The notes under the pieces are model-generated. The model was given only the letters and a program-made list of their open reading frames with translations, had not been told where the DNA came from and did not search any database. From IMG/VR virus record IMGVR_UViG_3300034418_010669, positions 1 through 29,594 of that record: a stretch of 29,594 nucleotides of DNA, one strand, 5' to 3'. The DNA is from a virus. Numbering within the stretch: position 1 is the stretch's first letter; every line of letters begins with the position of its first letter. Shown here in pieces: positions 650 to 29,059 of this stretch. Made by a program: the position numbers and the translations under genes.

Positions 650-666
650 ATGTCTCCTGTTTGTCT

Positions 667-727
667 CTGTTTTTATTTTATGGCTCTACCTATATAAATA
701 TACCTGTTTTGCGAGAAGATAAAACAG
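667..727 (-). promoter_or_regulatory. 61-bp intergenic element, copy B (fibre / endonuclease 1 gap)
   Basis: On the + strand it begins CTGTTTTTAT (667) and ends ATAAAACAG (727), with TATAAATA at 693-700. Inside it, CCTGTTTT (703-710) and AAAACAGG (721-728) form an 8-bp stem 12 bases after the fibre stop codon. On the minus strand this stem is followed by TATATTTATAT, so it may also act as a weak terminator. The left end is 18 bases from the endonuclease start. The same CCTGTTT could alternatively pair with AAACAGG at 656-662, which carries the ribosome binding site. The length and the core position match four other intergenic elements in the window. Promoter function is inference. Confidence 0.55.
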
Positions 728-739
728 GGTTCAATCTGG

Positions 740-2725
740 TTATGCGAATGATAACTCTGTTTTACAATCAAATGTAATAGATATACGTTTGTCGTTTCTA
801 TTAGATTGTGGTATGCTAGTACATACTAATCCAATGTATTGACCATTAGTAAATGTATGATTAGTAGTATCAGTCGCAAGGCCTTGACCTAATACGTTAT
901 CTGAACCTGAATTATTCGTTACTGTAAATGATGAGCTAACTTGTGTCCAACTATTACTCAATGCATTAGCATCTGATGTAGCTTTTACAATTGCAAAGTT
1001 TAGAGATAAATTTCTCATTTCACCAACGTGAACAAATGTATTGTCTAATACAACGTCTTTTCCTGTTGTATTTTTTACCCACCAGATACAAGCTTGTTCA
1101 TCACCTGAATATATCAAGTTACCGCTACCGTCAAAACTACCCTCCTCAGTTACTTCTCGAGAAACGTGCGTTGTATATGCTACTCGTCCAAGTGGTTTTC
1201 CAAAGTCTAAATCTGTAGTTGTACCATCATTCTCGGTAACATACAATATGTTATTTACTGCTGCTGTATTACTTTCAGCTGGTAAACCAATTTGATATGA
1301 AGTAGTCATCTTGCCTTGTGTAACCAAGCTTAGATTTGCTGATGTTCCTACAAAAGTAGCTTTTGCCTCTGTTGCAGTAGAAGAAGCAGCAAATTGTACA
1401 TCATCTGCTTCGTTTCTAATAAGAGAGTTTAGACCAGCGTCATTTGAGCCTAATGTTTTGAATAACAATGTACCAATATCAGCATTGTTATTTGTTAGAC
1501 TAATTGAAGCTAAGCCGCTTGAACCCACATGAATTTCACCGCCTGTTGCAATAGATAATCTATCACCTAATGTAATGTCATCTGAAACATTTACATCATA
1601 TGCATAGATTGTTCTTGCTCTTGCAGAAGTAGAAGCAATATCATATTGATTATTTACTGTAGGAACTAAATGATTTGCAGCGGTTACTTGCCAGTTTGCA
1701 GCGCTAAATCCACCACTACCATCTGCAAGCTGTATATCATATTGGTCTCCTACTGAGGCACCACCTGCATTTGCTTGAATAAGATCGAGTATTGCTGCAG
1801 CAGTCATTAGAGAGCCATCTGTATCTGAAAATGCTTCTGCAGATGTTTGTAAGGCACTATCGATAAATGCAGCAACATCTAAATCTGCAACATTTAGTGT
1901 AACATCACCGCTTGTACCGCCACCTGTAAGATAAGAGCCTGCAGTTACACCAGTAATGTCACCATCTGCTCCGTTATCTGCAGGAATAAATGTAGAAGTA
2001 GCATAATCCCAAGCTAATACTTGACCAGGATTAGGTGCAACGGTAAGGTCAACATCAGCCAAATCACCAATACTTGCTAGTGCAATCTGTCCATCGGCAA
2101 TAGTCTTTATTTGATTACGTAGAGTGTTTACCTGACCACCAGTAAGAGCACCACCTGCATTATCAGATCCTAATACAGTTCCAAGCCTGTCAGGAGTTAT
2201 AACTAATTCGTGGTCACTATCACTATCTAATTTACCTGCACCTTGAGCAATCTCAACAACATTAGCTATTTCTGACGCACCACCAACTGTGAGTGTTGCT
2301 TTGCTAGCATTGAGATCTTCAACTGCCTGAACTAAGTCATGATAAACGTTTTGCCAGTTTCTTTGTGTAGGTGCTGGCTTTTGTAATTGTTTGTTTGTAC
2401 TCTCTACAGAGATTGTAAAGAATGAACCTAAAGGTGCACCAACAGGATTACTAGCTGATGTATCGTTACTATTTGTATTTGTTGCAATAACAAATATTTG
2501 ATAGTTTCCCCATACATCAATATCTAACGATACATTGCTACCAATAGTTTGTGATAAAGCAGCGCTAGAACCTGTAGGTTTACTAACGATGAAATAGCTA
2601 AACGCCATACTTGGTGATGCATCAAGAGTATCTACTGCTGTAGGTGTAAGAGTTACTGTTTGTGGAAGATTTGCCTGTGAAATAGGCATTGCCACGTCTG
2701 ATGTTATTGATACTGAAATTGCCAT
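740..2725 (-). CDS. Tail fibre / virion structural protein
   Basis: This 661-residue protein has the composition of a trimeric phage fibre: rich in Gly, Ala, Ser, Thr, Asp and Asn, with few charged residues and no catalytic motif. Residues about 10-110 look like an immunoglobulin-type beta domain (PQTVTLTPTAVDTLDASPS region). The middle has fibre-shaft phrases such as GDITGVTAGSYLTGGGTSGD and DITLGDRLSIATGGEIHVG. These are common in fibres of marine myoviruses and their relatives. It is the last structural gene of the baseplate-to-fibre run and follows a GIY-YIG gene whose 3' end supplies its ribosome binding site (TAGGAGAA). The likely role is host-surface recognition or attachment of another fibre. 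I cannot identify the receptor domain. It could also be a short-tail-fibre or collar-fibre protein. Confidence 0.7.
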   Translation of the reverse strand: MAISVSITSDVAMPISQANLPQTVTLTPTAVDTLDASPSMAFSYFIVSKPTGSSAALSQTIGSNVSLDIDVWGNYQIFVIATNTNSNDTSASNPVGAPLGSFFTISVESTNKQLQKPAPTQRNWQNVYHDLVQAVEDLNASKATLTVGGASEIANVVEIAQGAGKLDSDSDHELVITPDRLGTVLGSDNAGGALTGGQVNTLRNQIKTIADGQIALASIGDLADVDLTVAPNPGQVLAWDYATSTFIPADNGADGDITGVTAGSYLTGGGTSGDVTLNVADLDVAAFIDSALQTSAEAFSDTDGSLMTAAAILDLIQANAGGASVGDQYDIQLADGSGGFSAANWQVTAANHLVPTVNNQYDIASTSARARTIYAYDVNVSDDITLGDRLSIATGGEIHVGSSGLASISLTNNNADIGTLLFKTLGSNDAGLNSLIRNEADDVQFAASSTATEAKATFVGTSANLSLVTQGKMTTSYQIGLPAESNTAAVNNILYVTENDGTTTDLDFGKPLGRVAYTTHVSREVTEEGSFDGSGNLIYSGDEQACIWWVKNTTGKDVVLDNTFVHVGEMRNLSLNFAIVKATSDANALSNSWTQVSSSFTVTNNSGSDNVLGQGLATDTTNHTFTNGQYIGLVCTSIPQSNRNDKRISITFDCKTELSFA

Positions 2726-2729
2726 TTTA

Positions 2730-3311
2730 TTATTCTCCTATATATCTTTTTGAGCTTGGGTTATTAGCACAATTATCAAAATGCCAACGTTTCATTGTTG
2801 AACCTCGGCCTTCTTTGCCACAATATGGGCAACAATGTTGTTGATGAGAAACATGGTTTCCACTTTCAATAGCTTTTTTTGTACTATTTACCGCAGTTTT
2901 ACTTCGAATGTTACGAACGTGTTGTAATGAAGCAGCTTTTCTACCAGCTTTTGTTAGTTGAGAAACTAATGTATCTTTGTTTTCTTTACGCCACTTCTTA
3001 GCTTTATTGTGCATTTCTTCGGTGAATTCACCTCCACCAACACCACCTTTTACAAGATTATAACATTGAGGATTATTTTTGTTTATCATCTTTTCACTGA
3101 CAATAACTCCCTCATATTCATATGCTTCGGCTTCGGTATCAAACCATAGTAATATCTCTTTACTGAAATTGGCTTTACCGTGCTTCTTATAAGCTTGCTT
3201 TAGTAGCTTACCACTGCCCTCATAGTTTGCAGTATCACTGCCATTATGAACGCCATAATAGTATTTACCATTTACGTTATTTGTTATTTTATAAATATGA
3301 GGTTTATCCAT
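2730..3311 (-). CDS. GIY-YIG homing endonuclease with C2HC zinc finger (copy 2)
   Basis: This 193-residue protein has HIY at residues 5-7 and YYG at 18-20 with the usual ten-residue spacing. A probable catalytic glutamate lies at 67 in YEYEGVIV and Asn85 in CYN. The C-terminus has a zinc finger: Cys161, Cys164, His177 and Cys181 in CPYC...HFDNC. NSTKKAIESGNHVSH before it is NUMOD-like. It is a close paralogue of the gene at 28414-28893, sharing both ends of the protein. The start codon overlaps the previous stop as TAATG with no good ribosome binding site, so translation probably depends on re-initiation after the 489-residue protein. Its own 3' end provides the ribosome binding site of the fibre gene. 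It therefore sits in the gap with almost no disturbance to either neighbour. Confidence 0.88.
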   Translation of the reverse strand: MDKPHIYKITNNVNGKYYYGVHNGSDTANYEGSGKLLKQAYKKHGKANFSKEILLWFDTEAEAYEYEGVIVSEKMINKNNPQCYNLVKGGVGGGEFTEEMHNKAKKWRKENKDTLVSQLTKAGRKAASLQHVRNIRSKTAVNSTKKAIESGNHVSHQQHCCPYCGKEGRGSTMKRWHFDNCANNPSSKRYIGE

Positions 3312-4780
3312 TATTGACTCGCTCTGCCGTATACTTTTACTAGAAGTCTAAATGCTGGAGCTGCATATTCTCCGTCATTATCTCTAAAATATTCAACAAC
3401 TTGATTATGGAATATACCTATTTCAGCAAGTGATGTTTGAAAAATAACTCCAGGTGTGCTTGTTGAGCTATTCCAAGGATAATAGTTTCCTTGTGGTGAA
3501 GCTAAGCAACTTTGTAAACTACCAAATATTCCTGATGGGTATCTTCCTCGCTGGTCGTTTGTTGATGTTCCAGCACCTTCAATTGTCATACTTTTTATTT
3601 GATTTATTGAAACTCCACTTGCAAGTGGTATCAATATCTGATAATTGTGTGCACTGCCAATATTATAGTTTAGTCCATCACCAGTTGGGCCAAGAGTAAC
3701 TGTATCACGTGTTAGTGCAGTAAGCGTTGATGTTTCATAACCTAATATTCTAAATGGTGTTTCTTGATTTAGAATGATAGTATTTCTTGCAGTTGCCTGA
3801 TCTGATGTGCCAACAAGTGCTGTCCAAGCATCACTATAAATAGGTTCTAAAATAACAGTATCTAAATGCACTGTTAGATCTTGTTTTACTGTTTCATCAA
3901 CTTTTTCAATCTCTTTTTTGAGACCCTGTAATGAATATTTAGGTTTACCGTTTACATTGATTAGATCAGTATCAGTTCTATCATCAGTTCCAAAGGACAT
4001 AATACGTTGAATATCACGTTCCATTCTAGCAAAAGGTGAGTTTAGACCGTTTCCATTTACTAGAGTTCCAGGATTGAAGTCAGTTGAAAGCGATGTATGT
4101 CTATCATTCAAAACATTTGGTAAAGAATTGTCATCCCAGCTTCTACTATTACCATAAGCTTCATCAAAGTAATTATATGAAATAAAGTTTGACGTAAGAA
4201 AGGGTGAGCCTTGATTAGCAGTATTTATGTTTCCTGAGGCAACATATCCTAATGCAATAGGCTGATATGAACCTTGTGTAACTCTGTAAGAGGCATCAAA
4301 ATTAGCAAAGAAGGTAAGTTTACTAAGCCTTCTTGTTGCAACGTTTTGTGTTATAGGTGCATCATCAATAACACTGTAAAATTCTCTATTTTCGTTTTGA
4401 CCGTCTTCAAACGTAGGATAAGCATAGAAATAAATGCCTGAAATAACTTCACCGTTATTTGTTTGAGTAACGTAGTTAGAAATAACATCAGTAATATCAC
4501 ATTGTGTAAGTCCGTTTGTTACATCTGTACTGTCAAATGCAATTACCTCGTCTTCTGCAGAAATACACGAAAAAGGATTGAATGTAACAATACCATTTGC
4601 TACACCTTGAACTGTAACGTTTTCTACTGGATAACCTACAAGTGAACCTTGAATATCACTTCTATAAGGTCTCATTGCTGTAATTACTTTTTTGATTTTG
4701 TCTAACACGCCTTGTTGAAGCTCATTAGCATCAGCAAGATCAAGTCTCTGTAATGTTTGGAATAATATCTTCTTTATCAT
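3311..4780 (-). CDS. Baseplate or fibre-adaptor protein, family not recognised
   Basis: This 489-residue protein lies directly downstream of baseplate J and upstream of the fibre. That is the usual place for a baseplate wedge, P2 gpI-like or fibre-adaptor protein. The first 40 residues (LFQTLQRLDLADANELQQGVLDKIKKVITAM) look helical. The rest is beta-rich, with few cysteines and no enzymatic motif. Residues about 280-310 (NGKPKYSLQGLKKEIEKVDETVKQDL) could form a short coiled coil before a C-terminal beta domain. A ribosome binding site, AAGGACA, precedes the ATG. I do not recognise the family. The role is inferred only from position and composition. Confidence 0.6.
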   Translation of the reverse strand: MIKKILFQTLQRLDLADANELQQGVLDKIKKVITAMRPYRSDIQGSLVGYPVENVTVQGVANGIVTFNPFSCISAEDEVIAFDSTDVTNGLTQCDITDVISNYVTQTNNGEVISGIYFYAYPTFEDGQNENREFYSVIDDAPITQNVATRRLSKLTFFANFDASYRVTQGSYQPIALGYVASGNINTANQGSPFLTSNFISYNYFDEAYGNSRSWDDNSLPNVLNDRHTSLSTDFNPGTLVNGNGLNSPFARMERDIQRIMSFGTDDRTDTDLINVNGKPKYSLQGLKKEIEKVDETVKQDLTVHLDTVILEPIYSDAWTALVGTSDQATARNTIILNQETPFRILGYETSTLTALTRDTVTLGPTGDGLNYNIGSAHNYQILIPLASGVSINQIKSMTIEGAGTSTNDQRGRYPSGIFGSLQSCLASPQGNYYPWNSSTSTPGVIFQTSLAEIGIFHNQVVEYFRDNDGEYAAPAFRLLVKVYGRASQ

Positions 4781-4792
4781 TTTTTATTGTCC

Positions 4793-6202
4793 TTATAAGC
4801 TTGTTGTAACAGAAATTTTAGATGAGTCAGTTCTCAACACATGTTTTGCTGAATTGGGATAAAGTGCTTCAAACAATGTATTTGTACCCTTTATATAAAT
4901 AGAACAAGATGCTAAAGGCTGTGTAACCATCAAGTGTGTTGTCAATGTAGATGAAGTAACTTCTTTACCTATGTCTAGACTATTTATATAATCAACAGCC
5001 GCATTCTTTACTGATAACTGTACAACTTCTCTATCTTGTTGTGGTTGGACGATTATTCGAATATCAACTTCAAAATCTGTGATTGTAGGTGGTACAACTC
5101 TTACACGAGTTCCTGCAGCTCTAAAGCCAGTTTGAACTGATCCATTATTGATATTTCCTTCAATTTGCTCTTGAAGTTGTGGTATCAAACCGTTATAAAC
5201 TCTAAATCCTGTAAATTGTACGGTGTCATCTTCTAATAAAACGCCAGGCTTGAAATAAACCAAACCCCTTTCGGGCAAAGAAACAAACTCATCTTCTCTT
5301 AGATTTACTCTTGCATTGTTTCTCGTAACAATTATATTATCAGTAGTAAAGTCTCTAGTTGCAGGCCTTTGATGTGTTAGAAATCTTGCGCCGCCAGCTG
5401 GTACAGTATAAACTGCAGTTTCTTGTAAAAGTGACTCAACGTTTCTAAGGCCTGTTCCATCATCAACAACTAATTCTGAATATCCTGGGATAGTAGGATC
5501 TTCGTAAACCTTTGCAAAAGTAAACGAAGAGTTGTCTGAAGATTTGTATGTTGTTCCTAGATATTCTAACGAACTTTTACTAACTCTGCCAATAGAGTTT
5601 ACATATCTCAATGCTCTTTGACGTAATGATGCATCACTCTCTTTATTCAGTCCATTACCTATAGGTGAAGTATTTGTAACTGAAATGACAGAGGCTGGCA
5701 TATTTACTACAGTATCTATTTCGCCTTCTAAGCAGTTTCCATCATCACCCGGTCTACTTGCAACAACAGGAACATTTTCAACAGTAGTTGCTGCAGCAGC
5801 AATAACTGCATCTTGTGTTGTTCTATATTGTACACCATTCGAAGATCTAGATACTGTAGAACCTGCAGGTATAACTAACGGGTTATTCAAATCTACGTTA
5901 CTTGAACGTGTAATCTTCAAAACGCTACCACTAGCAGCAATATTCTTTTTTCTAGAAATACCAATAGGAGGTAATTCTGAACATCTTTGGTCTAGCTCTT
6001 CACCTGTTGCATTTGATAAACTAAAACCTTCACGGATTTCAAATAATCTACTTTCGGTATTAGCTATTTCAGTTGCAATTGCATTCAATAGAATGTGCAA
6101 TGTCGAACCAATGTTGATGTCTGAAAGCTTTGTTCTAGAAAGAACTTTTGCTTGAAGATCTTGGAGGACTTTTTTTGAGCTGCGGGGTACAAACAAAGCC
6201 AT
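4793..6202 (-). CDS. Baseplate J-like protein (wedge component)
   Basis: This 469-residue protein matches the baseplate J / T4 gp6 / P2 gpJ pattern. It has an N-terminal helical part (LSDINIGSTLHILLNAIATEIANTESRLFEIREGFSLSNATGEELDQRCSE, seen in shorter pieces). Then come a beta segment with PAGSTVSR and VPVVASRPGDDGNCLEGEIDTV, the family phrase SPIGNGLNKESDASLRQRALRYV, and a C-terminal alpha/beta region ending in TSSTLTTHLMVTQPLA. In known phages the protein links the inner baseplate wedge to the peripheral part and triggers sheath contraction. A GAGGTGAT ribosome binding site lies 6-7 bases before the ATG. The upstream 69-base gap is very AT-rich and holds no 61-bp element. Confidence 0.88.
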   Translation of the reverse strand: MALFVPRSSKKVLQDLQAKVLSRTKLSDINIGSTLHILLNAIATEIANTESRLFEIREGFSLSNATGEELDQRCSELPPIGISRKKNIAASGSVLKITRSSNVDLNNPLVIPAGSTVSRSSNGVQYRTTQDAVIAAAATTVENVPVVASRPGDDGNCLEGEIDTVVNMPASVISVTNTSPIGNGLNKESDASLRQRALRYVNSIGRVSKSSLEYLGTTYKSSDNSSFTFAKVYEDPTIPGYSELVVDDGTGLRNVESLLQETAVYTVPAGGARFLTHQRPATRDFTTDNIIVTRNNARVNLREDEFVSLPERGLVYFKPGVLLEDDTVQFTGFRVYNGLIPQLQEQIEGNINNGSVQTGFRAAGTRVRVVPPTITDFEVDIRIIVQPQQDREVVQLSVKNAAVDYINSLDIGKEVTSSTLTTHLMVTQPLASCSIYIKGTNTLFEALYPNSAKHVLRTDSSKISVTTSL

Positions 6203-6271
6203 TATATCACCTCTTTTCTTTTATCATTATATAATATATATTACGTATTTGTATAAAATCTTTCAATATGT

Positions 6272-8191
6272 TTAGGCTTCAGCACGAATTGGTATCGTTT
6301 CGCCTTCAATAGTTTTTACATTGCAAGAAATAATAAGCGTATCATCTTCAATTTCTATAACAATATCAGTTACATCTACAATTCTTGGATCGCCTATTAG
6401 CATATTTCTGAGTACAGCAGCACCGTAAGTAACGTTACCAACAGCTTGATTTTGTGCTAGTCCGAAGAATTCAAATCCCGGGACTTCACCTATTCTAGTA
6501 AGTAGTGCCGTTGTTATTGCTTGTCTAATGTTTTCACTTCCACCAACAGTTCTAATATCGCCACCATCAAATATAATATCACCTAACTGTGTAAGTAAAT
6601 CAACTCCAATAGGGTCGTCCTCTTCTCCATAAGGATTTGCATTAGGTAAGAAGCTATTTGGTATATAAATCTTTTCACCTATTTCAAAATAATTACCATC
6701 ACTATTTCTTCTGTGATCACGTGTATCATTTTCTCTTTGGATTTCTACCCAACGTTCAGCATCACCAAAGTATTTTATAGCGAGTGATACTAAATCTTCG
6801 TCTTTAGCAATAGTATGGACTAAAACATTTTGTCTACGTCCTCTATCATTTAGTGCTCTATGTGGGAAGTTAGAAGCAATCAAACCTAAGTTTTCTTCAT
6901 TTAGTAAGAACTCACCTCTAATAACACCTGATGTTAGTGTATCAGGATTTGTTATTCTATTATCATATATTTCTTTAGGAATACTACCACGTAAGTTTTC
7001 TCCCAATGAGTTTATTCTATTTTGAATAGTAATTATCTTACCTATTTCACTATCTCTTTTATCACTCTCACCAACAGCAGGCTCTGATGCTATACGTAAT
7101 GCACTAATTGAAGCATCAAGCTTGGCTTTACTATCAATCTGCCCTGTAATATTTCCACCTATAGCGCCTAACAACTGAAATGGGTAAAATTCTTCTAATG
7201 TTGAAGTATCGCCAATTGCATCAAACATATTATCCCAACTATCACCTATGATTGAAAAATCTCTAGTAACTTGGGCTAAATCAGAACCTATACCATATAC
7301 GTTTTGTGTAAGACTACCAACAGAATTCAATACATCAGACACAGAGTTGAATATACTTCCTATATTGCGTATAGCACCTCTAACAGGACTAACGAAATCA
7401 TTTGAAATATTATTTACAACATTGCCTGCAACACTTACTGCTCCACCAATAGCGTTTATTTGATTATTTGTTGCATCGATAAATGTATCAAATGGTCCGC
7501 GTTTTACTTCTATGTAATCATATCCTTGAAATTGACAGGACCAAATGTAATCGTGCCTATTACTATTTGTATCTTTTTGCCATTGAAATGATACAGGCTC
7601 AACTACTAAATGTAAATCTTCATCTAGACACCGCAATATCATTTTAGGCACTTTATTATGATTTCCACCAACAGCTAATCTTTGTGCTGCTTGACCTTCA
7701 ACTGGACTGATAGGTACTAAGTTTTGGCTTATACCATATTCTTGTGTAGATATTTCTATATATCGTTTGAAGAATTCATCCATTTCTTGGAATAAAGCTT
7801 CACCTTCAGCGTAAATAATACCGCCATTTCTTGTATACCCACTACGCTGTGCTAAACCACTTCTACCAACTAACGTAATATCATGTCTTCTAATAGTATT
7901 TACTTCTCTTACAACACCACCCAAAGTATAATTTACTCTTATAGGATTAGGTCTATTGTAAATAATATTACTTGGATCGTATGGGAATACCATTGTTGAA
8001 ACAATTTCCTCACCGTTTCGAAACTCTAAATAATATTTTGCAGGTATTCGACCAAGCCCATCAGTACCTATAAATGAACCTAGGCCTCCTGTAAGTGTGG
8101 TTAGGCCTAATAAATCATCACGAGAAGGCCTAGCGCCCGGCGCAGAGAAGTTTTTATATTTTGTCCGTAATGACCCCATCAATAAGCTCAT
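6272..8191 (-). CDS. Baseplate fusion protein: N-terminal tube-initiator-like domain, LysM, gp25-like domain
   Basis: This 639-residue protein appears to carry three parts. Residues about 50-235 form a beta-rich domain (YYLEFRNGEEIVSTMVFPYDP, then HDYIWSCQFQGYDYIEV) of the type found in tail-tube initiator and baseplate proteins. Residues about 235-350 are a low-complexity Gly/Ala/Asn/Val helical linker. Residues about 454-511 are LysM-like (VLVHTIAKDEDLVSLAIKYFG, ending IGEKIYIP). Residues about 527-639 match the T4 gp25 wedge fold (IRTVGGSENIRQAITTALLTRIGEVPGFEFFG). In T4, gp53 (LysM) and gp25 are separate neighbouring wedge proteins, so this looks like a fusion of adjacent baseplate functions. 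An AAAGGAT ribosome binding site precedes the ATG. The LysM domain here probably binds baseplate partners rather than peptidoglycan. Confidence 0.8.
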   Translation of the reverse strand: MSLLMGSLRTKYKNFSAPGARPSRDDLLGLTTLTGGLGSFIGTDGLGRIPAKYYLEFRNGEEIVSTMVFPYDPSNIIYNRPNPIRVNYTLGGVVREVNTIRRHDITLVGRSGLAQRSGYTRNGGIIYAEGEALFQEMDEFFKRYIEISTQEYGISQNLVPISPVEGQAAQRLAVGGNHNKVPKMILRCLDEDLHLVVEPVSFQWQKDTNSNRHDYIWSCQFQGYDYIEVKRGPFDTFIDATNNQINAIGGAVSVAGNVVNNISNDFVSPVRGAIRNIGSIFNSVSDVLNSVGSLTQNVYGIGSDLAQVTRDFSIIGDSWDNMFDAIGDTSTLEEFYPFQLLGAIGGNITGQIDSKAKLDASISALRIASEPAVGESDKRDSEIGKIITIQNRINSLGENLRGSIPKEIYDNRITNPDTLTSGVIRGEFLLNEENLGLIASNFPHRALNDRGRRQNVLVHTIAKDEDLVSLAIKYFGDAERWVEIQRENDTRDHRRNSDGNYFEIGEKIYIPNSFLPNANPYGEEDDPIGVDLLTQLGDIIFDGGDIRTVGGSENIRQAITTALLTRIGEVPGFEFFGLAQNQAVGNVTYGAAVLRNMLIGDPRIVDVTDIVIEIEDDTLIISCNVKTIEGETIPIRAEA

Positions 8192-8220
8192 TTTATATCC
8201 TTTCGAGTTCTAAGATTGTT

Positions 8221-8281
8221 CTGTTTTGACTTTTATCATAAACTTATATAAACATACCAGAAAAGTCATAAATCAAAACAG
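8221..8281 (-). promoter_or_regulatory. 61-bp intergenic element, copy A (spike / baseplate fusion gap)
   Basis: The ends are a perfect 9-bp inverted repeat: CTGTTTTGA (8221-8229) and TCAAAACAG (8273-8281). A second inverted pair, GACTTTT (8228-8234) and AAAAGTC (8261-8267), lies inside. TATAAACA is at 8247-8254 on the + strand. The element starts 12 bases after the spike stop codon and ends about 30 bases before the start of the LysM/gp25 gene. Candidate promoter, operator or RNA processing site; the direction of action is not clear. Confidence 0.6.
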
Positions 8282-8293
8282 AGACAAATCTGA

Positions 8294-9157
8294 TTATTTA
8301 GGTAACCTAACTTTATGATTGATAGCTTTTATAGTATCATTTTTTGATGTTGCAATAGTTCTACGTGGTGTATCATTCAATAGAGTGTTTTCTGCATTTT
8401 CAGCACTAGTTCTAGCAGCTTCATTTGAAGCTAATGCTGTTTGTAAAGTTGAAAAAGGCGCATTTAGAGGAGCAAGTGGTCCAGTTGTATTAGCTACACC
8501 TGTTGCTGCAAATGCTGCCAGCTGTTGTTGTAATGCGCTATCTAATAATCTTAGTGTTCTTAGTTGTTGCTCTATAAGCTCTTGTTTTGCATGAAGCTCT
8601 TCTAATAGTTTATATAACTCTGTTATGAATTTTGCGCCATCTAATGCACAGTCACCAGCTCTACCGCCGGCACTTATTCTTAGCATACCATCACTTGGTA
8701 GCTGTATTCTGACGTCTGATGATGTTGATAACTGTATTCCGTAACCATCTGAAAGATTTAGAGAGTTTCCTTTATTAGAAACATAATAATCAGATGTACA
8801 GGGAATATGTCTATCTTGAACACGTGAAGTAGGATAAACTTCATTTGCAATTGCAACACCTGCAGGTTTGAAAACACTTCCTATGATATAAGGTTGCTCA
8901 CTAGCTGAAGTTTTCAATAAATATACTTCTTGGCCAATGTCGTGAGGCATTATGCTATACATTTCGTGATGTCCACCACACTGAACAATTGTTTCTACGT
9001 GTGTGTGCAATTCACCATTGACGTCAATTACTTCACATATTTGTGCATTATCAACTGCTCTAACACTTAGACTAGTAACGTGCCCACGAATTACTTCAGG
9101 TCTAGCTTCTTCACCGTGTGAATATCTACTCTTATCAGTTTTAGCACTTGTCCACAT
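8294..9157 (-). CDS. Baseplate central spike / gpV-like OB-fold protein
   Basis: This 287-residue protein sits between the hub and the wedge genes. Residues about 20-130 (VIRGHVTSLSVRAVDNAQICEV, then MPHDIGQEVYLLKTSASEQPYIIGSVF) have the OB-fold pattern of P2 gpV and the T4 gp5 N-terminal domain. These domains cap the tail tube under the hub. A short beta stretch (YGIQLSTSSDVRIQLPSDGMLRISAGG) resembles the start of a spike helix. A coiled coil follows at about 180-215 (ITELYKLLEELHAKQELIEQQLRTL, seen as heptads), then an Ala/Thr-rich tail. No lysozyme domain is seen. AGGAGAG lies before the ATG and overlaps the 3' end of the hub gene. The histidine-rich HxH tip motif seen in some spikes was not found. 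Confidence 0.75.
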   Translation of the reverse strand: MWTSAKTDKSRYSHGEEARPEVIRGHVTSLSVRAVDNAQICEVIDVNGELHTHVETIVQCGGHHEMYSIMPHDIGQEVYLLKTSASEQPYIIGSVFKPAGVAIANEVYPTSRVQDRHIPCTSDYYVSNKGNSLNLSDGYGIQLSTSSDVRIQLPSDGMLRISAGGRAGDCALDGAKFITELYKLLEELHAKQELIEQQLRTLRLLDSALQQQLAAFAATGVANTTGPLAPLNAPFSTLQTALASNEAARTSAENAENTLLNDTPRRTIATSKNDTIKAINHKVRLPK

Positions 9158-9168
9158 TATTACTCTCC

Positions 9169-13137: not shown

Positions 13138-13149
13138 AATTTTTCTCCC

Positions 13150-16126: not shown

Positions 16127-16283
16127 TTTTACATTCTCCCTAAAATAAAATATATATCTATAAGTATATCTAAACTTTGTTATTTTTGAAATATTAGTTG
16201 ATTTTTTTTTATTACTTACATTTTATTTAGTTTTATGGGCAAATAAGCTTCAATGACTAAAAAATCTGTCTTCGAATACTAAA

Positions 16284-16374
16284 ACACGACGTTTATCTCT
16301 GTTTTATATTAGAACCTTACTTACCTGTTTATATGGGGCAAGTAAAAAAGTTCAAACAGGATAAAACGTCGTGT
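16284..16374 (-). repeat. 91-bp extended inverted repeat enclosing element E
   Basis: ACACGACGTTTATC (16284-16297) and GATAAAACGTCGTGT (16360-16374) are inverted repeats with a single extra base. They give a 14-bp stem around element E. The minus-strand RNA would fold into a long stem with nested helices and is followed by GTGTTTTAG. It could therefore serve as a terminator of the sheath-tube transcript, an RNase III-type processing site or a DNA cruciform. About 150 bases of AT-rich sequence with no gene follow, up to the chaperone ribosome binding site. Confidence 0.6.
16299..16359 (-). promoter_or_regulatory. 61-bp intergenic element, copy E (tube / chaperone gap)
   Basis: On the + strand it begins CTGTTTTATA (16299) and ends TTCAAACAG (16359). 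TGTTTATA at 16325-16332 reads TATAAACA on the gene-sense strand. TTACTT (16317-16322) and AAGTAA (16340-16345) can pair around that core. It follows the tail tube stop codon by 41 bases and lies 173 bases before the chaperone start. Unlike the other copies it is enclosed by a longer inverted repeat (16284-16374). Confidence 0.55.
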
Positions 16375-16400
16375 ACGATTATTATACGGTATTCTATTTA

Positions 16401-16898
16401 TTAGACACTGTCATGTCTAACAAGGTGTGTACCGTCGATAGTTACCTGAACGCCGGCAATAGAGCCACGATCAACGATAAAGTTTTGTGAGCTAATACGA
16501 CAGTTTTGCATTGTATAGATAACCTGTTGTGTAGTAGTTCCTGGTGCACTGTCATAGATTTCTAAGTCAAATGTAGCTTTTGTCAATGCAGAAGTTGTAC
16601 GAGTACTTTCAGCTTCATTTAGAACTTGTGAAGTGTTTACGATTGCTCCTTCGTCAACCTCACCTTCTGCTAAACCTTCAAATTGGGTCATATTAGCATA
16701 CTGAAAAATACGTAAGAAGTTTACCGTAGCACTTACAGCGCGTCCGATAGGTACTACTTCACGTGTATCAATAAATCCAAGTGAGTCGACGCGTCCGTTG
16801 AATGTGCTTTCAGTAATAGAAATACCTGTTGCAAATCCGGCTACGTCACCTCCTATTTTTATGAGCGCTTTGGCGCCTGTAATTACGTTGAATGCCAT
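16401..16898 (-). CDS. Tail tube protein
   Basis: This 165-residue protein directly follows the sheath gene and has the tail-tube pattern. The N-terminus has IKIGGDVAGFATGISITES, then FIDTREVVPIGRAVSATVNF, where the protein name to its target is described in related tubes as a beta hairpin arrangement. A loop region rich in Thr and Glu follows. The C-terminal strands are QNCRISSQNFIVDRGSIAG and VQVTIDGTHLVRHDSV. Hexameric rings of this fold stack to form the tube through which DNA passes. The length fits contractile-phage tubes. AAAGGAT precedes the ATG. The stop codon is followed by 41 bases and then by the regulatory element described at 16299-16359. Sheath followed by tube is the usual order, which strengthens the call. 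Confidence 0.85.
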   Translation of the reverse strand: MAFNVITGAKALIKIGGDVAGFATGISITESTFNGRVDSLGFIDTREVVPIGRAVSATVNFLRIFQYANMTQFEGLAEGEVDEGAIVNTSQVLNEAESTRTTSALTKATFDLEIYDSAPGTTTQQVIYTMQNCRISSQNFIVDRGSIAGVQVTIDGTHLVRHDSV

Positions 16899-16913
16899 TT
16901 TCTAAATCCTTTC

Positions 16914-18692: not shown

Positions 18693-18707
18693 AGTTTTTT
18701 TCTCCTA

Positions 18708-20140: not shown

Positions 20141-20149
20141 AGCTTACCT

Positions 20150-21160: not shown

Positions 21161-21191
21161 TTTATTACCTTTCTGGATATCGCAGTTTGCT

Positions 21192-21252
21192 CTGTTTACA
21201 TTTTTATCCAGTTTCTATGTATTTATATATACAGTATATAAACATTTTACTG
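21192..21252 (-). promoter_or_regulatory. 61-bp intergenic element, copy D (candidate late promoter of the neck-tail genes)
   Basis: This lies between the capsid terminator and the adaptor gene. TATAAATA, the T4-type late promoter core, reads on the minus strand at 21220-21227, and TATAAACA reads on the plus strand at 21237-21244. CCAGT (21208-21212) and ACTGG (21249-21253) flank the pair. The left end CTGTTTAC starts at 21192, but the right end is degenerate (ACTG instead of AAACAG). It is about 32 bases from the adaptor start codon. A position just after a terminator makes this the best promoter candidate of the five copies. Confidence 0.6.
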
Positions 21253-21277
21253 GCTTTATTCTGTTGTTTGAGGTCAT

Positions 21278-21312
21278 AAAAAAATCCCCGCGCGGGAGAG
21301 AGGAACGCAGGG
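21278..21312 (-). terminator. Rho-independent terminator after the major capsid gene
   Basis: On the minus strand CCCTGCG (21306-21312) can pair with CGCGGGG (21286-21292) over a 13-base loop, with one G-U pair. The stem is followed by one A and seven Ts (21278-21284). A short palindrome CCCGCGCGGG (21287-21296) allows an alternative compact hairpin. It lies about 60 bases after the capsid stop codon. It is one of the few GC-rich spots in the intergenic DNA. Confidence 0.8.
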
Positions 21313-21370
21313 CCAAAAAATATTTTTTTTGAAAGTGGGTTCTTCCCTAGTAACGATAATCTAGCTGATA

Positions 21371-22906: not shown

Positions 22907-22919
22907 ATTTATAATCTCC

Positions 22920-23453: not shown

Positions 23454-23690
23454 TTTATTTTCTCCTATAAAAAATTAGTTTTTATTTGATGACGAATAAA
23501 ACTGTGGAGAATGTACTACACAACTCCAAGTTTCTCTAGCAAACTAAATAAAAGTATATGATATAACTATCATATTTTTACAATATTTATTTACTTAGCT
23601 GTGCTTTTTTTAGTTTGATGTCGGAAAGACTGATATATCTATGTGTTTTATGAGACATATCAGCTTTATTTATGTATTACTTTTTTAGTG
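23454..23690 (-). promoter_or_regulatory. 237-base AT-rich gap with two inverted repeats (protease / scaffold)
   Basis: No gene is seen here. On the minus strand an 11-bp stem (CTGATATGTCT with AGATATATCAG, one G-U pair, 12-base loop) lies at 23630-23663, soon after the protease stop. It is not followed by a T-run, so it is a doubtful terminator but a possible mRNA 3' end or processing hairpin. Farther on, ATATGATA and TATCATAT form an 8-bp palindrome with a 4-base spacer at 23556-23575. Its AT-rich surroundings could hold a promoter for scaffold and capsid. No 61-bp element end is present. Confidence 0.4.
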
Positions 23691-24956
23691 TTATTTTTTG
23701 TAAAACTGTAGAATATAGTTTTTTACTAGTTTTTCATTCATTCCAGCTTTTAGTAAAGAAGATACAATTGACTTCATTGAATAATCTTCAGAAGCCATTT
23801 CCTCGTCGTCTTCTAAACTTTGAGGCTGAATTGCAGACATATCAGACATTTTCTTGTAATCACACATTTTGTGATACATCTTAGAAAGCATATCGTGTAA
23901 CATACTCATTACTTCTGGATCTTTTAGTTCTGGATATTCTTCAACAATATCCTCTAACATATCCTCAATACTTTCGTCTTCCTCGTCTTCATCTTTCTCT
24001 AGTTTCATATACATTTTCTCGTACATCTTAGAAAGCATATCAACAAATCTCTTGTATCTATCATAATCCATAAGATCGTCTTTTACAGCTTTATCCATAT
24101 TTGCATCTGTACGATAATCATCATCTCTAGTTTGTGAAGGAGGCTCAACACTATGTGGTGCTACAACGCTTTCCTCTTCTAGACTTTCTAAATAATCAGG
24201 ATTTACATCCTTACCTAGAGGTCCTTCTTTCATTTCAATATCTAGATAATGATATGCTGCTTGCATATAATCACATGCTTTGATAATTTTTGCTTGGCAC
24301 CATTCAGGAAGATCTGCATCTTCTGGAAGCATAGAAAGTAATTGTACCATCTTGCTTGAATATTCTGCTAGCAATTTAGATTTATCTAATGACATAGGAA
24401 CGTCATTGTATTCATCACTCTTATTCATAGTTTCAGTTTCCTTATTAGCTAATATGTTTTTTACTAAAGCAACAGTGCTCTCAGGATTTGCAGGTGTATG
24501 TGTTAGGCTGATATTTAGTACTTTTGCGCGAGTAACAATATGTGGATTTCTTTTATCACGTGCTAATACTTGACCTTCAATACTAAAACCTAAGTTTCTT
24601 CCGCTGTTTGTATTCTTCATTACAGAAATATTTTCCATCAAATCTTTTACGATTTGTTTATCTGCATACAAAATACCTTCTATTTCAGTTGCTTTTTTGC
24701 CATTATGTGAAACTTTAGAGATTTTTTGTGGTGCTCCTAGAATATATTTAGGGTCATTCTTGTGGTCATAATTGAAGTGTCCACTTTTTAGTGCATAACT
24801 AAAGTCTAGGCCATCCTGAAGAATGATTTCGTCGTGTTGATCGACGTGCTCTGTTGATGCAATGCCTTTGATAAAATATGTTTTACCATCCTTAGACATT
24901 ATAATGTTAGATTTTTCGAGTGGGCGCCAATGCGCAAAAACTTCCAGTTTACTCAT
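23691..24956 (-). CDS. Prohead maturation protease with acidic C-terminal extension
   Basis: The protein has 421 residues from ATG 24956. I prefer this ATG because GAAAGGA lies just before it; a TTG 15 bases upstream would place the ribosome binding site inside the coding region. Residues about 1-175 fit the phage serine prohead protease family. His65 in FNYDH and Ser125 in GFSIEG are the likely catalytic pair, and LTHTPANPES follows at 151-160. The protease cuts scaffold and capsid N-termini during maturation. Residues 175-421 are acidic and Met-rich (DMLSKMYEKMYMKLEKDEDEE, then LHDMLSKMYHKM) with helical character, possibly a scaffold-like tail. It overlaps the previous gene by 8 bases (ATGAGTAA). 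Confidence 0.8.
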   Translation of the reverse strand: MSKLEVFAHWRPLEKSNIIMSKDGKTYFIKGIASTEHVDQHDEIILQDGLDFSYALKSGHFNYDHKNDPKYILGAPQKISKVSHNGKKATEIEGILYADKQIVKDLMENISVMKNTNSGRNLGFSIEGQVLARDKRNPHIVTRAKVLNISLTHTPANPESTVALVKNILANKETETMNKSDEYNDVPMSLDKSKLLAEYSSKMVQLLSMLPEDADLPEWCQAKIIKACDYMQAAYHYLDIEMKEGPLGKDVNPDYLESLEEESVVAPHSVEPPSQTRDDDYRTDANMDKAVKDDLMDYDRYKRFVDMLSKMYEKMYMKLEKDEDEEDESIEDMLEDIVEEYPELKDPEVMSMLHDMLSKMYHKMCDYKKMSDMSAIQPQSLEDDEEMASEDYSMKSIVSSLLKAGMNEKLVKNYILQFYKK

Positions 24957-25386
24957 CGATATTCCTTTCAAATTGGCTGTTTAGCGCCTCATGAAGAGGC
25001 ATACCTTGTTCGAGTTTATTTCGAAGTGCTTGTAAAGCATAGCCGCCAACAACATGCCAGTCAGCTCTTCGAGGATTATACTGTTTCTGTATGTCAAATG
25101 CTTTATTTAGTTGGCTCAAACGTACATTATTAGCTGCAATAGCTTTTGCAATTCTACGTGATTTGCCTGTTGGATTGCCTTTTAGTTTACTTTTTTTATA
25201 AGATTTTAGAGACTGTGCACTAATCTTTATAATAGCATCACCAATTGATATCGCAGATGTTTCCTGTTTTGTCTCTGTTTGAACTTCTTGCTCAATAGGT
25301 ATATCAACCAAGTTCTCAACAAAAGTTTTTTCTGGCTTTATATGGTGTTTATCTCTGGCTTTTTGTAGCAATTCAACAAATGACAT
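24949..25386 (-). CDS. Small basic head-region protein, family not recognised
   Basis: This 145-residue protein is placed between the DUF-type protein at 25406 and the protease. It has a hydrophilic N-terminus (SFVELLQKARDKHHIKPE). A lysine/arginine-rich middle follows (LKSYKKSKLKGNPTGKSRRIAKAIAANNVRL). The C-terminus is a helical part with a tryptophan (NPRRADWHVVGGYALQALRNKLEQGMPLHEAL). The C-terminal segment looks like a small folded domain. I do not recognise the family. A GGGAGAG ribosome binding site precedes the ATG and the stop overlaps the protease start, so the two are likely translated together. A role in head assembly or DNA handling is only inferred from position. Confidence 0.6.
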   Translation of the reverse strand: MSFVELLQKARDKHHIKPEKTFVENLVDIPIEQEVQTETKQETSAISIGDAIIKISAQSLKSYKKSKLKGNPTGKSRRIAKAIAANNVRLSQLNKAFDIQKQYNPRRADWHVVGGYALQALRNKLEQGMPLHEALNSQFERNIDE

Positions 25387-25405
25387 AATATCTCTCCCTG
25401 ATATT

Positions 25406-25939
25406 TTATATTTCTATTTCTTGTCTAAGATCGTCATAATAACGCTTAGCTTCTTCCATATATTCTCTATCACTGTCATTTATAACAGCGACAAAGTCAG
25501 AAGATGATTTTTTGGTGTTTTCTAAATGTTCTTCCCATAAATCCCTATCAGCTGTTCTTTGTGTTTTACCACCAGTAAGAAACGAATAAACTCTGGCTTT
25601 TGACCACTGAACAGATGTGGCACCGGGTCTATGACTACCTTCCCAAGCTCCAGCTCCACGTTCCCAAACTTGTTCGATAATTTTTCTAGAAACACCACTA
25701 ACTTTAGAGGCTGCTCTGATAAATTCATCTTTGCCCGGCTTTTTCATTTCTTCTCTAACTTCTTCAGCTAGTTTAGTTCTAGAATATTTACTGGGCTTAG
25801 TTTTTACTTTATCATCACCAGGAAGTGGAGAATAGTCAGGTTTTGGATCTTTCTTTCTCCTATCCATTTCCTTTTCTCTAGCTTCTTTATCTTTTTCAGA
25901 GAGCTTAGCTCGTGCTGCTTTTAGAATATCTGTAAACAT
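25406..25939 (-). CDS. Small phage protein with a conserved W/GG domain (DUF5824-like)
   Basis: This 177-residue protein begins with a charged helix (KAARAKLSEKDKEAREKEMDRRKKDP) and a basic linker (DDKVKTKPSKYSRTKLAEEV). From about residue 85, FIRAASKVSGVSRKIIEQV, then GAWEGSHRPGATSVQWSKAR and YSFLTGGKTQRTADRDLWEE form a compact domain. It resembles the small domains of unknown function (recalled as DUF5824) that recur in large phages. The match is from memory and not checked. The start codon has only a weak ATAGG upstream, so it may be coupled to the 32-codon ORF just before it. No catalytic motif is visible. Confidence 0.6.
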   Translation of the reverse strand: MFTDILKAARAKLSEKDKEAREKEMDRRKKDPKPDYSPLPGDDKVKTKPSKYSRTKLAEEVREEMKKPGKDEFIRAASKVSGVSRKIIEQVWERGAGAWEGSHRPGATSVQWSKARVYSFLTGGKTQRTADRDLWEEHLENTKKSSSDFVAVINDSDREYMEEAKRYYDDLRQEIEI

Positions 25940-25947
25940 ATTATTGC

Positions 25948-26046
25948 CTATAGATAATATTTCGACTTATAAACTTTATCAGCCTGAAGGTGTAATACAT
26001 CGTACCAATGCATTATTTGGTCGTCTAATTCTTTTAGGTTTTTCAT
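25948..26046 (-). CDS. Small ORF, 32 residues, coupled to the portal gene
   Basis: The ATG overlaps the portal stop codon as TAATG, and the frame ends at TAG (25948-25950). The product begins MKNLKELDDQIMHWYDVL and ends DKVYKSKYYL. It is amphipathic, with a hydrophobic stripe of Leu, Ile, Trp and Tyr. It fills almost all of the 106 bases between portal and the next gene. No ribosome binding site is needed if translation re-initiates after the portal stop. It could be a real microprotein or chance. I rate it as plausible because it exactly fills the gap in a densely packed region. Confidence 0.45.
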   Translation of the reverse strand: MKNLKELDDQIMHWYDVLHLQADKVYKSKYYL

Positions 26047-28139
26047 TATTCTTTTTCCATTCTTTGGTCTACTTCATACAATAATTTTTCTGCCCATATT
26101 CCACCTGGGTGTGATGCCCAAATTTGGAGTGCAGTCCAACCATTGTCTTTCCAAGGTGTATCTTTCCACTCTTCTTTTACGCCACCATTCTTTTTATGGC
26201 GTACCCAGAAAGAATACATTCTCTCAACAATATTTAGTGATAGTTTTTCACCATTAGCGAGTTGTGTAGCGCGGCCCCAGCCAACACGTGTTCCACCTCT
26301 AACTTCATCACCATGTTCCTCACGTAAATCTAGAATATTCTGTGCTATTTCTTTTAGCTCATCAGGAACTTCAAAAACAGCGTCATCATCAGAGAATTTA
26401 CTCCAATCAATATCATCTAAATAACTAAAGTCAAATTTTATTTTCTTAGCTCTATCAATCTCTAATTGTAGCTCTTTTTGTGAATATTCTTCTTTGTATA
26501 AAGCATCTAAGAAAACATCTTTTACATCTTTTACGTTTTTACCAACCATGTGTGGAGGAGGAGGAACATCACCATATCCTGGCTGGTCGTATCCTTCGAG
26601 CTCAAGCTTTCTTTCATGCTCTTCTTGAATAACTTGGTCAAGTTCAGCTTGAGGACGTCCATAAGCATCTGCGAGTGCAATACCTTGTCGACCACGTAGA
26701 ATAGCAACCTTTAGAGCTGAATATGCAGAAGCAATGATATTTCCATCATCTATCTCTTCTAAATCATGTTGTGCACGTATTTCGTTTAGTGTTAGGTAAT
26801 CCATACGATGTTTTTCAAGTTTCATTTTATCAATAGGTGAAACTGAGTCGAAACCAACAAAAACTAATTGGTATCTATCATCTATCTGATCTATTATATA
26901 ACGATTTATCCAAGTTTGTAAACTTCTAATAAGAGGTCTCAAACCTTTTTCTTTACCCATAAGAACACGTGAAGTTGGATCGCCAGCAAAAACTGTTGAG
27001 CTTTGCATTTCATTACCAAAAACAAATCCAATTTCTGCAGGATCAATCTGGTAAACTGCACATGTAACTTTGATTAGATAATTTACCCAGTTTTGATATT
27101 CCATTTCTCTATTAGAAGAACCTAATGAGATACTTTGGATTGCTTCATTTTCCTCTGGGTCTAATTGAATAAGTGGTGTTCTTTTAGCGTTTGCTGTACC
27201 ATTTAGCATTTGATAAAATTCACGCCTGAAAGAACGGAATAACTTTGGGTCCATTTTACTCTTTACAGCAATAATACCATTAGCATTTATACCGTTAGTA
27301 AAATGTGCACCATTATAAGTTTCAGCATTGAATAAGTTATTTAGTGTTCCATATAATTCATATAACTCACTATGACCATATCCACGTGCACCTAAATCTG
27401 TTCTAGGCCTACGAATACCGAAACATAATTCATCTTGTTTATATTCAGCAACAACCTTTTGGTTGATTACCTGTAAGTATCTAGTTCCTGATGGATCTTT
27501 TCTTCCTCTTTTTACTTCTTCTTTAGACATCTTAGCACGTCTAATAGTAGTTGCATCAACAGGAATAAATCCAGTTACTTGTCCTTTTCTATTTTTTATA
27601 ATTTCAAAACAGCAAGCATCATATACGAGACTATCTCTAACAATCTGTCTTAGGAAAGCTTCAAATGTTAGTTCGTAATCTTGAACAGTTGTGCCACAAT
27701 TCTGTAAGAAGTTGTTGAGGGCACGCATATTCAATTTGTCATCTTCAGTTACTTCTGCTTCTGGGTCTTTCATAACTATTCTATAACCCAGGTCATCATC
27801 GTTAGAAAACTGTGCAAATTCAGCAACTTGGTTTACACGAGCGCCGATAATAGAAGCAATAATATGATGTTTAGCTAATTCTTTCATTGACCACATTGAT
27901 AATTCATCTCTTCGATGCTCATCAAAGAAATATTTCTTACCATTGCCATCATATGCTTCTGCTAGATAATAATTTGCGTGATCTTGCGGATTTATTTCGA
28001 AAGATCTTGCTTCTTTTTCTAGGTTGTCTAAAATATGTGCGCTTTTTGTAATAACCTCAGTTTCAGGCTGAACACTTTCTGTTAGTAAATTAGAATTTTC
28101 TGTGTCTCTACTGAATAGTCTTTGCCACCAAGTTGCCAT
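26046..28139 (-). CDS. Portal protein with C-terminal accessory domain
   Basis: This 697-residue protein forms the dodecameric vertex through which DNA is packaged. The portal pattern is clear: WSMKELAKHHIIASIIGARV, SLVYDACCFEIIKNRKGQV, FIPVDATTIRRAKM, RRPRTDLGARGYGHSELYEL, LNNLFNAETYNGAHFTNG, then TCAVYQIDPAEIGFVFG and GLRPLIRSLQTWINRYIIDQ. Residues about 595-697 are extra: LREEHGDEVRGGTRVGWGRA, LSLNIVERMYSFWVRHKKN and WTALQIWASHPGGIWAEKLL resemble a small conserved domain seen in other phage proteins (recalled as DUF6321). AGGAGAG precedes the ATG. It is the first large head gene in this stretch; the terminase is outside the window. Confidence 0.85.
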   Translation of the reverse strand: MATWWQRLFSRDTENSNLLTESVQPETEVITKSAHILDNLEKEARSFEINPQDHANYYLAEAYDGNGKKYFFDEHRRDELSMWSMKELAKHHIIASIIGARVNQVAEFAQFSNDDDLGYRIVMKDPEAEVTEDDKLNMRALNNFLQNCGTTVQDYELTFEAFLRQIVRDSLVYDACCFEIIKNRKGQVTGFIPVDATTIRRAKMSKEEVKRGRKDPSGTRYLQVINQKVVAEYKQDELCFGIRRPRTDLGARGYGHSELYELYGTLNNLFNAETYNGAHFTNGINANGIIAVKSKMDPKLFRSFRREFYQMLNGTANAKRTPLIQLDPEENEAIQSISLGSSNREMEYQNWVNYLIKVTCAVYQIDPAEIGFVFGNEMQSSTVFAGDPTSRVLMGKEKGLRPLIRSLQTWINRYIIDQIDDRYQLVFVGFDSVSPIDKMKLEKHRMDYLTLNEIRAQHDLEEIDDGNIIASAYSALKVAILRGRQGIALADAYGRPQAELDQVIQEEHERKLELEGYDQPGYGDVPPPPHMVGKNVKDVKDVFLDALYKEEYSQKELQLEIDRAKKIKFDFSYLDDIDWSKFSDDDAVFEVPDELKEIAQNILDLREEHGDEVRGGTRVGWGRATQLANGEKLSLNIVERMYSFWVRHKKNGGVKEEWKDTPWKDNGWTALQIWASHPGGIWAEKLLYEVDQRMEKE

Positions 28140-28149
28140 TGTGCTCTCC

Positions 28150-28395
28150 TTATTTCTTCATCAATTCTTGAACTTGTGTATCGATACGAGTAATAATAAC
28201 TTTGATTTCATTTATACTAACAAGTATTTTATCAATATTATCATCATTTTTATCCATACGTTGTTCTAGAGAGTCAATTCTACTATGAAGTTGCGTCATC
28301 TCTTTCGTCGTTTGTTTACTATCCTTATGCCATGTATAAAAGAGTGTCAAAGCACCCAAAATACTCCCTGCTGATAATACTAATGAAGTGTCCAT
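28150..28395 (-). CDS. Small membrane-anchored coiled-coil protein
   Basis: This 81-residue protein has one hydrophobic segment near the N-terminus (SLVLSAGSILGALTLFYTW, residues about 4-22). It is followed by a basic/polar turn and then a coiled coil (LHSRIDSLEQRMDKNDDNID, then KVIITRIDTQVQELMKK). The shape resembles phage spanin, holin-like or XhlA-type small proteins, but in XhlA the membrane segment is at the other end. It lies 10 bases before the portal gene, an odd place for a lysis protein. The ribosome binding site is weak. The function is not known; membrane attachment is inferred from the hydrophobic segment. Confidence 0.6.
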   Translation of the reverse strand: MDTSLVLSAGSILGALTLFYTWHKDSKQTTKEMTQLHSRIDSLEQRMDKNDDNIDKILVSINEIKVIITRIDTQVQELMKK

Positions 28396-28413
28396 TTCTA
28401 CTCGTTTCTTAGA

Positions 28414-28893
28414 TTATAGTTTCTTTTTGCATTTCTCGAAGTGCCAGCGTTTCATATTAGGAACGCTACCTTCCTTTCCACAATGTGGACAAATGACTGT
28501 TTGATTATTTACATGTCTAGGAGAACGAGCTGATTTTTTTCCACATGAGACCCTAAAGTCGTGTGTCATTTTTTCTGTTGAAGCTTTTCCACCTTTGCTA
28601 CAATCAGAGTGTGTCCAACCACCTCCAATGCCGCCAAGTTTTATATTGTAACACATAGGATTATCAACTAATTTCTGATTTACAATAACTGCTTCATATT
28701 CATAAGCTTCAGCTTCTGTATCAAACCACATAAGTATTTCTTTAGTAAAAGCTTTAGGACCATGTTTATCATACGCCCTTTTCAGCAATTTACCACTGCC
28801 TTTATAATAATCAGTATTCGATCCGTTATGTACTCCATAATAAAACTTTTTGCTGATATTGTTGGTAATTTTATAAATGTGTGGCTTATTCAA
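28414..28893 (-). CDS. GIY-YIG homing endonuclease with C2HC zinc finger (copy 3)
   Basis: This 159-residue protein starts at a TTG (28893), preceded by AGGAG about 6 bases away. That start matches the N-terminus of copy 2 (MDKPHIYKITNN) exactly; a longer frame upstream runs through the intergenic element and is not credible. HIY is at residues 5-7 and YYG at 18-20. Glu67 in YEYEAVIV and Asn83 in CYN are the likely active-site residues. The zinc finger is Cys135, Cys138, His151 and Cys155. It shares most of its N-terminal 90 residues and its last 25 with copy 2 but has a shorter middle. It sits between a fibre-like gene and the small membrane protein gene. Confidence 0.85.
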   Translation of the reverse strand: MNKPHIYKITNNISKKFYYGVHNGSNTDYYKGSGKLLKRAYDKHGPKAFTKEILMWFDTEAEAYEYEAVIVNQKLVDNPMCYNIKLGGIGGGWTHSDCSKGGKASTEKMTHDFRVSCGKKSARSPRHVNNQTVICPHCGKEGSVPNMKRWHFEKCKKKL

Positions 28894-29059
28894 ATTTGTC
28901 TCCTGACATTCTACAGGCTCCGCCTCCTGTATTCCACCGAAGTGGCCACCTATTACAAATAGGGTATCTACATTTGATCTGTTTTTACATATACGAAAAA
29001 TACGTATAAACATACATATCAAGCAGGCCGTAAAACCTGCGTCAATCTATAACCTAATA
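28894..29059 (-). promoter_or_regulatory. Leader region of endonuclease copy 3 with two small hairpins
   Basis: The 166-base gap holds the 61-bp element at 28979-29039. Close to the gene it also holds two minus-strand hairpins. CCAC-TTCG-GTGG (28934-28945) is a UUCG tetraloop type. AGGC-GGA-GCCT (28915-28925) overlaps a GGAGG stretch. The area 28912-28950 is clearly GC-richer than the rest of the intergenic DNA. A 7-codon frame (ATG at 28909, TAA at 28886) overlaps the TTG start. These features could tune translation of the endonuclease, but that is inference. Confidence 0.4.
28979..29039 (-). promoter_or_regulatory. 61-bp intergenic element, copy C (fibre-like gene / endonuclease 3 gap)
   Basis: On the + strand it begins CTGTTTTTAC (28979) and ends TAAAACCTG (29039), a degenerate form of the AAACAG end. 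TATAAACA is at 29005-29012, at the same offset (26 bases) as in copies A and B. A separate small hairpin, GCAGG (29023-29027) and CCTGC (29036-29040), lies 20 bases after the upstream stop. ATACG (28991-28995) and CGTAT (29003-29007) also pair. It is 86 bases from the TTG start of endonuclease copy 3. Confidence 0.5.

Follow-up and report, generated by a model that had tools for sequence, protein, structure and literature searches.

The stoperators of cluster A mycobacteriophages (L5, TipsytheTRex) are asymmetric 13-bp sites, each recognized by a repressor monomer and oriented according to transcription (PMC9283540), and phages can also exploit the host CtrA through clustered sites (PMC9437464). 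By analogy, stoperators may be the nearest functional counterpart of a repeated element present in the virus record IMGVR_UViG_3300034418_010669, which likewise occurs in many dispersed copies, mostly in short intergenic spaces. The element differs from stoperators in its length (∼60–85 bp), in its tripartite and often dyad layout and in the absence of an asymmetry that follows transcription. No candidate for a phage repressor that halts elongation, as at stoperators, was found among the proteins scanned. The boxes of host response regulators (CtrA, TTAA-N7-TTAA; PhoP; PhoB; ArcA) resemble the element in having tandem half-sites ∼11 bp apart, whereas its best conserved part is CTGTT between TTWAA stretches. 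The CtrA box TTAA-N7-TTAA(C) was found in one of 37 dyads (28 in all contigs against 12.6 ± 4.8 in shuffles) and the exact 11-bp tandem PhoP, PhoB and ArcA boxes in none of the 37; hence, these boxes were rejected as the identity of the element. Literature searches revealed no earlier description of it, and the Rfam search gave no match in the window.

In the window, i.e., the whole 29.6-kb stretch of DNA analyzed, the main genes all lie on the minus strand. The products include a portal, a maturation protease, a major capsid protein, a tail sheath, baseplate proteins and three homing-endonuclease-like proteins (genes 35–649, 2730–3311, and 28414–29022), and two of the latter genes directly adjoin the element copies W1 and W5. 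No close isolate was found; the capsid and portal proteins resembled those of SPO1-like phages of Bacillus and their relatives, with ∼28–37% identity over part of the length. The capsid protein was 72–100% identical in ∼20 IMG/VR contigs, and further relatives were gathered via the portal and terminase, while a search with a baseplate protein yielded none. The main comparison set comprised 17 contigs (the window and 16 relatives), most of them fragments, and called genes span 90–96% of the bases in the contigs analyzed. Searches of bacterial and archaeal genomes with capsid or terminase detected no relatives, and so no host was assigned. The element was present in an AT-rich lineage (capsid at least 72% and terminase at least 77% identical) and absent from more distant relatives (terminase 44% identical, GC 0.475–0.52). 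A scan of 2.9 million viral contigs with TTCTGTTTTTN{38,52}AAAAACAGAA matched mainly unrelated sequence, and a stricter pattern including the core matched one contig, which had no protein in common with the group in the compared stretch. The portal gene itself varies in the lineage: a 111-aa stretch of the portal of contig G015 (residues 564–674) is missing from the window portal and is 79% identical to a separate downstream ORF of the window (region 25406–25939 and 26046–28139). The same gap sequence in G001, G003, and G021 excludes a single assembly error.

The initial annotation had described five 61-bp spans, each starting with CTGTTT, and all of them were recovered exactly. Three end in AAACAG, while W5 and W4 end in ACCTG and ACTG, respectively. 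The shared left flank TTTG-N-TCTGTTTT was also confirmed and corresponds to the outer of the two repeats of an arm. The element has three parts (Table 1): one arm, a core that is AT-rich and TATAAATATA-like, and another arm in inverted orientation. Each arm consists of two degenerate direct repeats or half-sites, 10–11 bp apart, around a nearly invariant CTGTT (arm consensus approximately YY..gaTTTAAnTCTGTTTTAAnTTT). The core, often reading TATAAA[TC]A, lies ∼20 nt inside the arm, with the distance from CTGTTT to TATAAA fixed at 19–21 nt, and the inner sequence differs from copy to copy. Either arm can be absent, and many sites are halves. The core had been read in plus orientation in three copies and in minus orientation in two, so that three of five would oppose transcription of the minus-strand genes. 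This orientation holds little information, since the core is close to a palindrome and all but one of the five window copies score well on both strands. For the same reason, the use of the core as a direction marker and the idea of invertible promoters were dropped.

Table 1. Copies of the repeated element and the gene holding the coding copy in the window.
Feature	Coordinates	Strand	Profile score (bits)	Description
W1	653..741	.	35.5 on +, 31.2 on −	61-bp dyad 667–727, flanked on both sides by ∼14 bp of outer arm; tandem CTGTTT at 657–662 and 667–672; core ∼693–702
W2	8207..8295	.	26.8 and 31.3	dyad 8221–8281 with outer arms; core ∼8247–8256
W3	16285..16373	.	29.0 and 21.5	dyad 16299–16359 with outer arms
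W4	21178..21266	.	24.5 on +, 18.6 on −	degenerate dyad 21192–21252 with outer arms, behind the capsid-gene terminator; strong arm on + strand
W5	28965..29053	+	25.9	dyad 28979–29039 with outer arms; strong + strand arm
Coding half copy	25261..25315	+	20.1	tandem CTGTTT at 25264–25269 and 25275–25280; core-like TATATC at ∼25302
Gene with half copy	24949..25386	−		145 aa, between portal region and protease; N-terminal linker holds the half copy

The view that these copies form a phage-specific repeated module with a dyad was upheld. The pattern clearly exceeds shuffled sequence, and CTGTTT…AAACAG pairs of the same size were found in relatives. A hand-picked 12-copy profile detected 65 sites above 16 bits and none in shuffles; later iterations of the profile were trained on their own hits and are hence not independent. 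Spacing counts, which use no profile, gave 28 inverted CTGTTW…WAACAG pairs at 60–63 bp in the 17 contigs (7, 12, 7, and 2 at 60, 61, 62, and 63 bp) as compared to ∼0.7 in shuffles (0.1–0.3 for each length), although some contigs are related and the counts are thus not all independent events. Full dyads gathered at 60–61 bp, some at 62–63 bp. Other lengths were close to background except 51 bp (four pairs) and 71–72 bp (five pairs), and direct CTGTTW repeats peaked at 11 bp (9 in the 17 contigs against 0.6 in shuffles). Arm spacings of 51, 61, and 71–72 bp suggest helical phasing; the tandem repeat within each arm is itself expected to give satellites one helical turn away. As a control, CTGTTTTN{30,50}AAACAG had no match in the window read backwards.

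The copies are placed with respect to gene ends. Twenty-two of 27 intergenic dyads start 12–41 nt past a stop codon (p = 0.0004 as compared to random positions in their gaps), and intergenic copies remain close to the stop codon upstream of them even where the gap measures 300 nt or more. Three of the remaining five follow the capsid gene, where a terminator separates the stop codon from the element. W1 starts 12 nt past the stop of gene 740–2725 and ends 17 nt before gene 35–649, and W2 starts 12 nt past the stop of gene 8294–9157. Copies persist at orthologous loci in gaps that otherwise diverge, with the exception that the W2 locus lacks the element in the relatives G006, G015, and G020. 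W3 is a near-perfect inverted repeat extending to CACGACGTTTAT. At its locus, behind the ortholog of gene 16401–16898, most relatives keep the gene-sense arm (ACGACGTTTATCTCTGTT) and the core, usually followed by a terminator-like hairpin that replaces the second arm. In W5, a GCAGG..CCTGC hairpin replaces the other arm, and most relatives have the strong arm of this locus on the same strand; the stronger arm at the W5 and W1 loci of relatives usually lies on the other side than at the 16401–16898 locus. The W5 dyad overlaps ORF 28414–29022 as called from a TTG start; the homing-endonuclease match begins ∼30 residues into the tested piece of its product, and the true start is probably downstream of the called TTG. 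Other repeated sequences were seen in G015, G006, G020, G022, and G016, in the gaps that follow the portal gene and in those of the W2 locus: each phage has a short leader of its own that is repeated ahead of several genes (for example, CATTGATAGGCAGTTA in G015 and G006, ACATTGGTTATACGTTAAGGAG in G020), and the motif (C)GACATC(T/A)AA also recurs in gaps. In the capsid 3′ region of most relatives, a GGGAGAG…CTCTCCC complementarity was observed, the second part of which lies in the loop of a GCCTC…GAGGC-T7 terminator hairpin; this possible pseudoknot terminator is degenerate in the window (21253–21370, minus strand).

It had been stated that no copy lies inside a gene. This does not hold, as a sixth copy, a half, was found within coding sequence; among distinct exact CTGTTT..AAACAG copies, 15 of 18 were intergenic. 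The element favors gene ends and is also written into a gene. The 145-aa product of that gene has no Pfam match and a weak match to phrog_8230 (function unknown). In alignable orthologs, the arm and core are present in antisense in an otherwise poorly conserved linker. When the profile was rebuilt with intergenic copies alone, the half copy exceeded synonymous-codon randomizations at p ≤ 0.005 in nine of 11 orthologs and at p ∼0.08 in the remaining two, with p = 0.005 for the window copy, the orthologs being related and hence representing fewer than 11 independent tests. These results indicate selection at the nucleotide level inside the coding region, which argues against an intrinsic terminator and against functions that need an intergenic setting. 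A dyad in a signal-peptide-like early-region gene of G006 and G015 also exceeded synonymous randomization (p = 0 to 0.05) and was given little weight, as CTG-TTT-TTA-CTT also spells a leucine-rich signal peptide.

The earlier suggestion of a T4-type late or bidirectional promoter found no support. In such a promoter, the arm would serve as an activator or upstream box and the core as a −10 element, T4-late-like or host-like, with dyads forming two overlapping promoters. The fixed distance between CTGTTT and TATAAA is compatible with this, as is the sequence of G014, which reads TTGACA-N17-TAAAAT across the element. TATAAATA is the T4-type late promoter sequence, and the frequent TATAAA[TC]A core resembles it; the core differs in being near-palindromic, often antisense, far from start codons and at a fixed distance to the arms, and TATAAATA itself occurs in gaps 13 times in sense and nine times in antisense. 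The unit occurs in both orientations relative to the genes: arm plus core is gene-sense at two loci and opposite at others, consistently across relatives. In most relatives it opposes the genes at several loci, including one inside a gene. The element moreover lies at gene ends rather than starts. Sigma-70-like sites were absent from the five spans, and the five regions were no richer in them than shuffles. TATATAAT is more strand-biased (27 sense against nine antisense in gaps) and often lies 130–155 or ∼30 nt ahead of a gene in late-gene gaps of the relatives, making it the better candidate for a gene-sense late promoter of the lineage. A promoter leaves the inverted second arm at 60–61 bp unexplained, and we consider it improbable.

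An RNA processing signal had also been proposed, and a hairpin behind stop codons could stabilize, process, or terminate late transcripts. Besides this location, the reading draws on the arms themselves, as intergenic outer arms fit their own partner at 5.39 of nine positions against 4.34 for swapped partners (0/3000 permutations), intergenic copies frequently form hairpins, and the W3 fold reaches z = −7.7. Structure is nevertheless not the common denominator: the W1 fold (z = −1.0) is no stronger than that of shuffles, halves that lack a second arm are common, and in-gene copies show no pairing beyond the consensus (4.22 own, 4.23 swapped). No intrinsic terminator (G+C-rich stem and U run) was found inside the five spans; the sole one detected lies at 21285–21299, outside W4, and separate terminators also exist at the W3 locus of relatives. 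An RNA function of the element is accordingly given little credence. Hairpins may be of importance at some intergenic loci, or else template switching homogenizes the arms, and the latter is favored here because half copies and coding copies manage without pairing. Template switching has been described as homogenizing the arms of inverted repeats and inverting spacers (PMC8604942) and as creating and maintaining RNA hairpins (PMC8794818). The element might alternatively be a site for a DNA transaction (packaging, replication, recombination, or homing-endonuclease targeting) or the relic of a small mobile inverted-repeat element, which we regard as rather unlikely. It is generally known that recombinase and initiator sites have an arm–core–arm layout with tandem half-sites, which the element resembles, and both the empty W2 locus in relatives and the homing-endonuclease-like genes adjoining W1 and W5 would fit such a reading. 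Against it, copies do not share their inner sequence, no target-site duplication was noticed (judged by eye only), and the scanned proteins included no recombinase or initiator; that relatives retain the element at orthologous loci speaks against a neutral relic.

We infer, at about even odds, that the element is a distributed, phage-specific candidate protein-binding DNA site, probably acting at the ends of transcription units. This reading is based on the rigid arm spacing (51, 61, and 71–72 bp) together with the 11-bp CTGTTW repeat, on conservation at orthologous loci within diverging gaps, on nucleotide selection in the coding linker and on the position of most dyads shortly after stop codons. 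An oligomeric protein, phage-encoded or host-recruited, would bind the tandem half-sites, bend the core and, in full dyads, bridge both arms. As most copies lie directly behind stop codons and next to terminators, the complex would most likely act where late transcription units end, serving as a roadblock or insulator against read-through or antisense transcription. Template switching between inverted arms in intergenic copies would homogenize the arms and could flip the core, so that hairpin-like pairing and cores of either direction would arise with no RNA function involved; the restriction of extra pairing to intergenic copies is in agreement with this part. A Pfam search of the scanned early proteins of G015 found no DNA-binding domain. 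A roadblock accords poorly with the coding copy, which lies close to the 5′ end of its gene, and the direction of the arms does not track transcription; both points count against the protein-binding reading.

More broadly, it is tentatively conceivable that the lineage has a phage-encoded system of genome punctuation or architecture, in which a hypothesized protein would occupy 60–61-bp tripartite sites at late-unit ends, and at least one coding site maintained through codon choice, and would thereby insulate units or organize the chromosome. The punctuation of a phage genome by dispersed protein-binding sites is well documented in the cluster A mycobacteriophages. If the present reading is true, the element would represent a second such system, with a different site geometry and kept even in coding sequence, which would suggest that other phages too organize their late transcription or chromosome by dispersed sites. 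The sequence of the element would provide a handle for isolating the protein, and the apparent homogenization of its arms may also allow template switching in phage DNA to be tested on a naturally occurring example.
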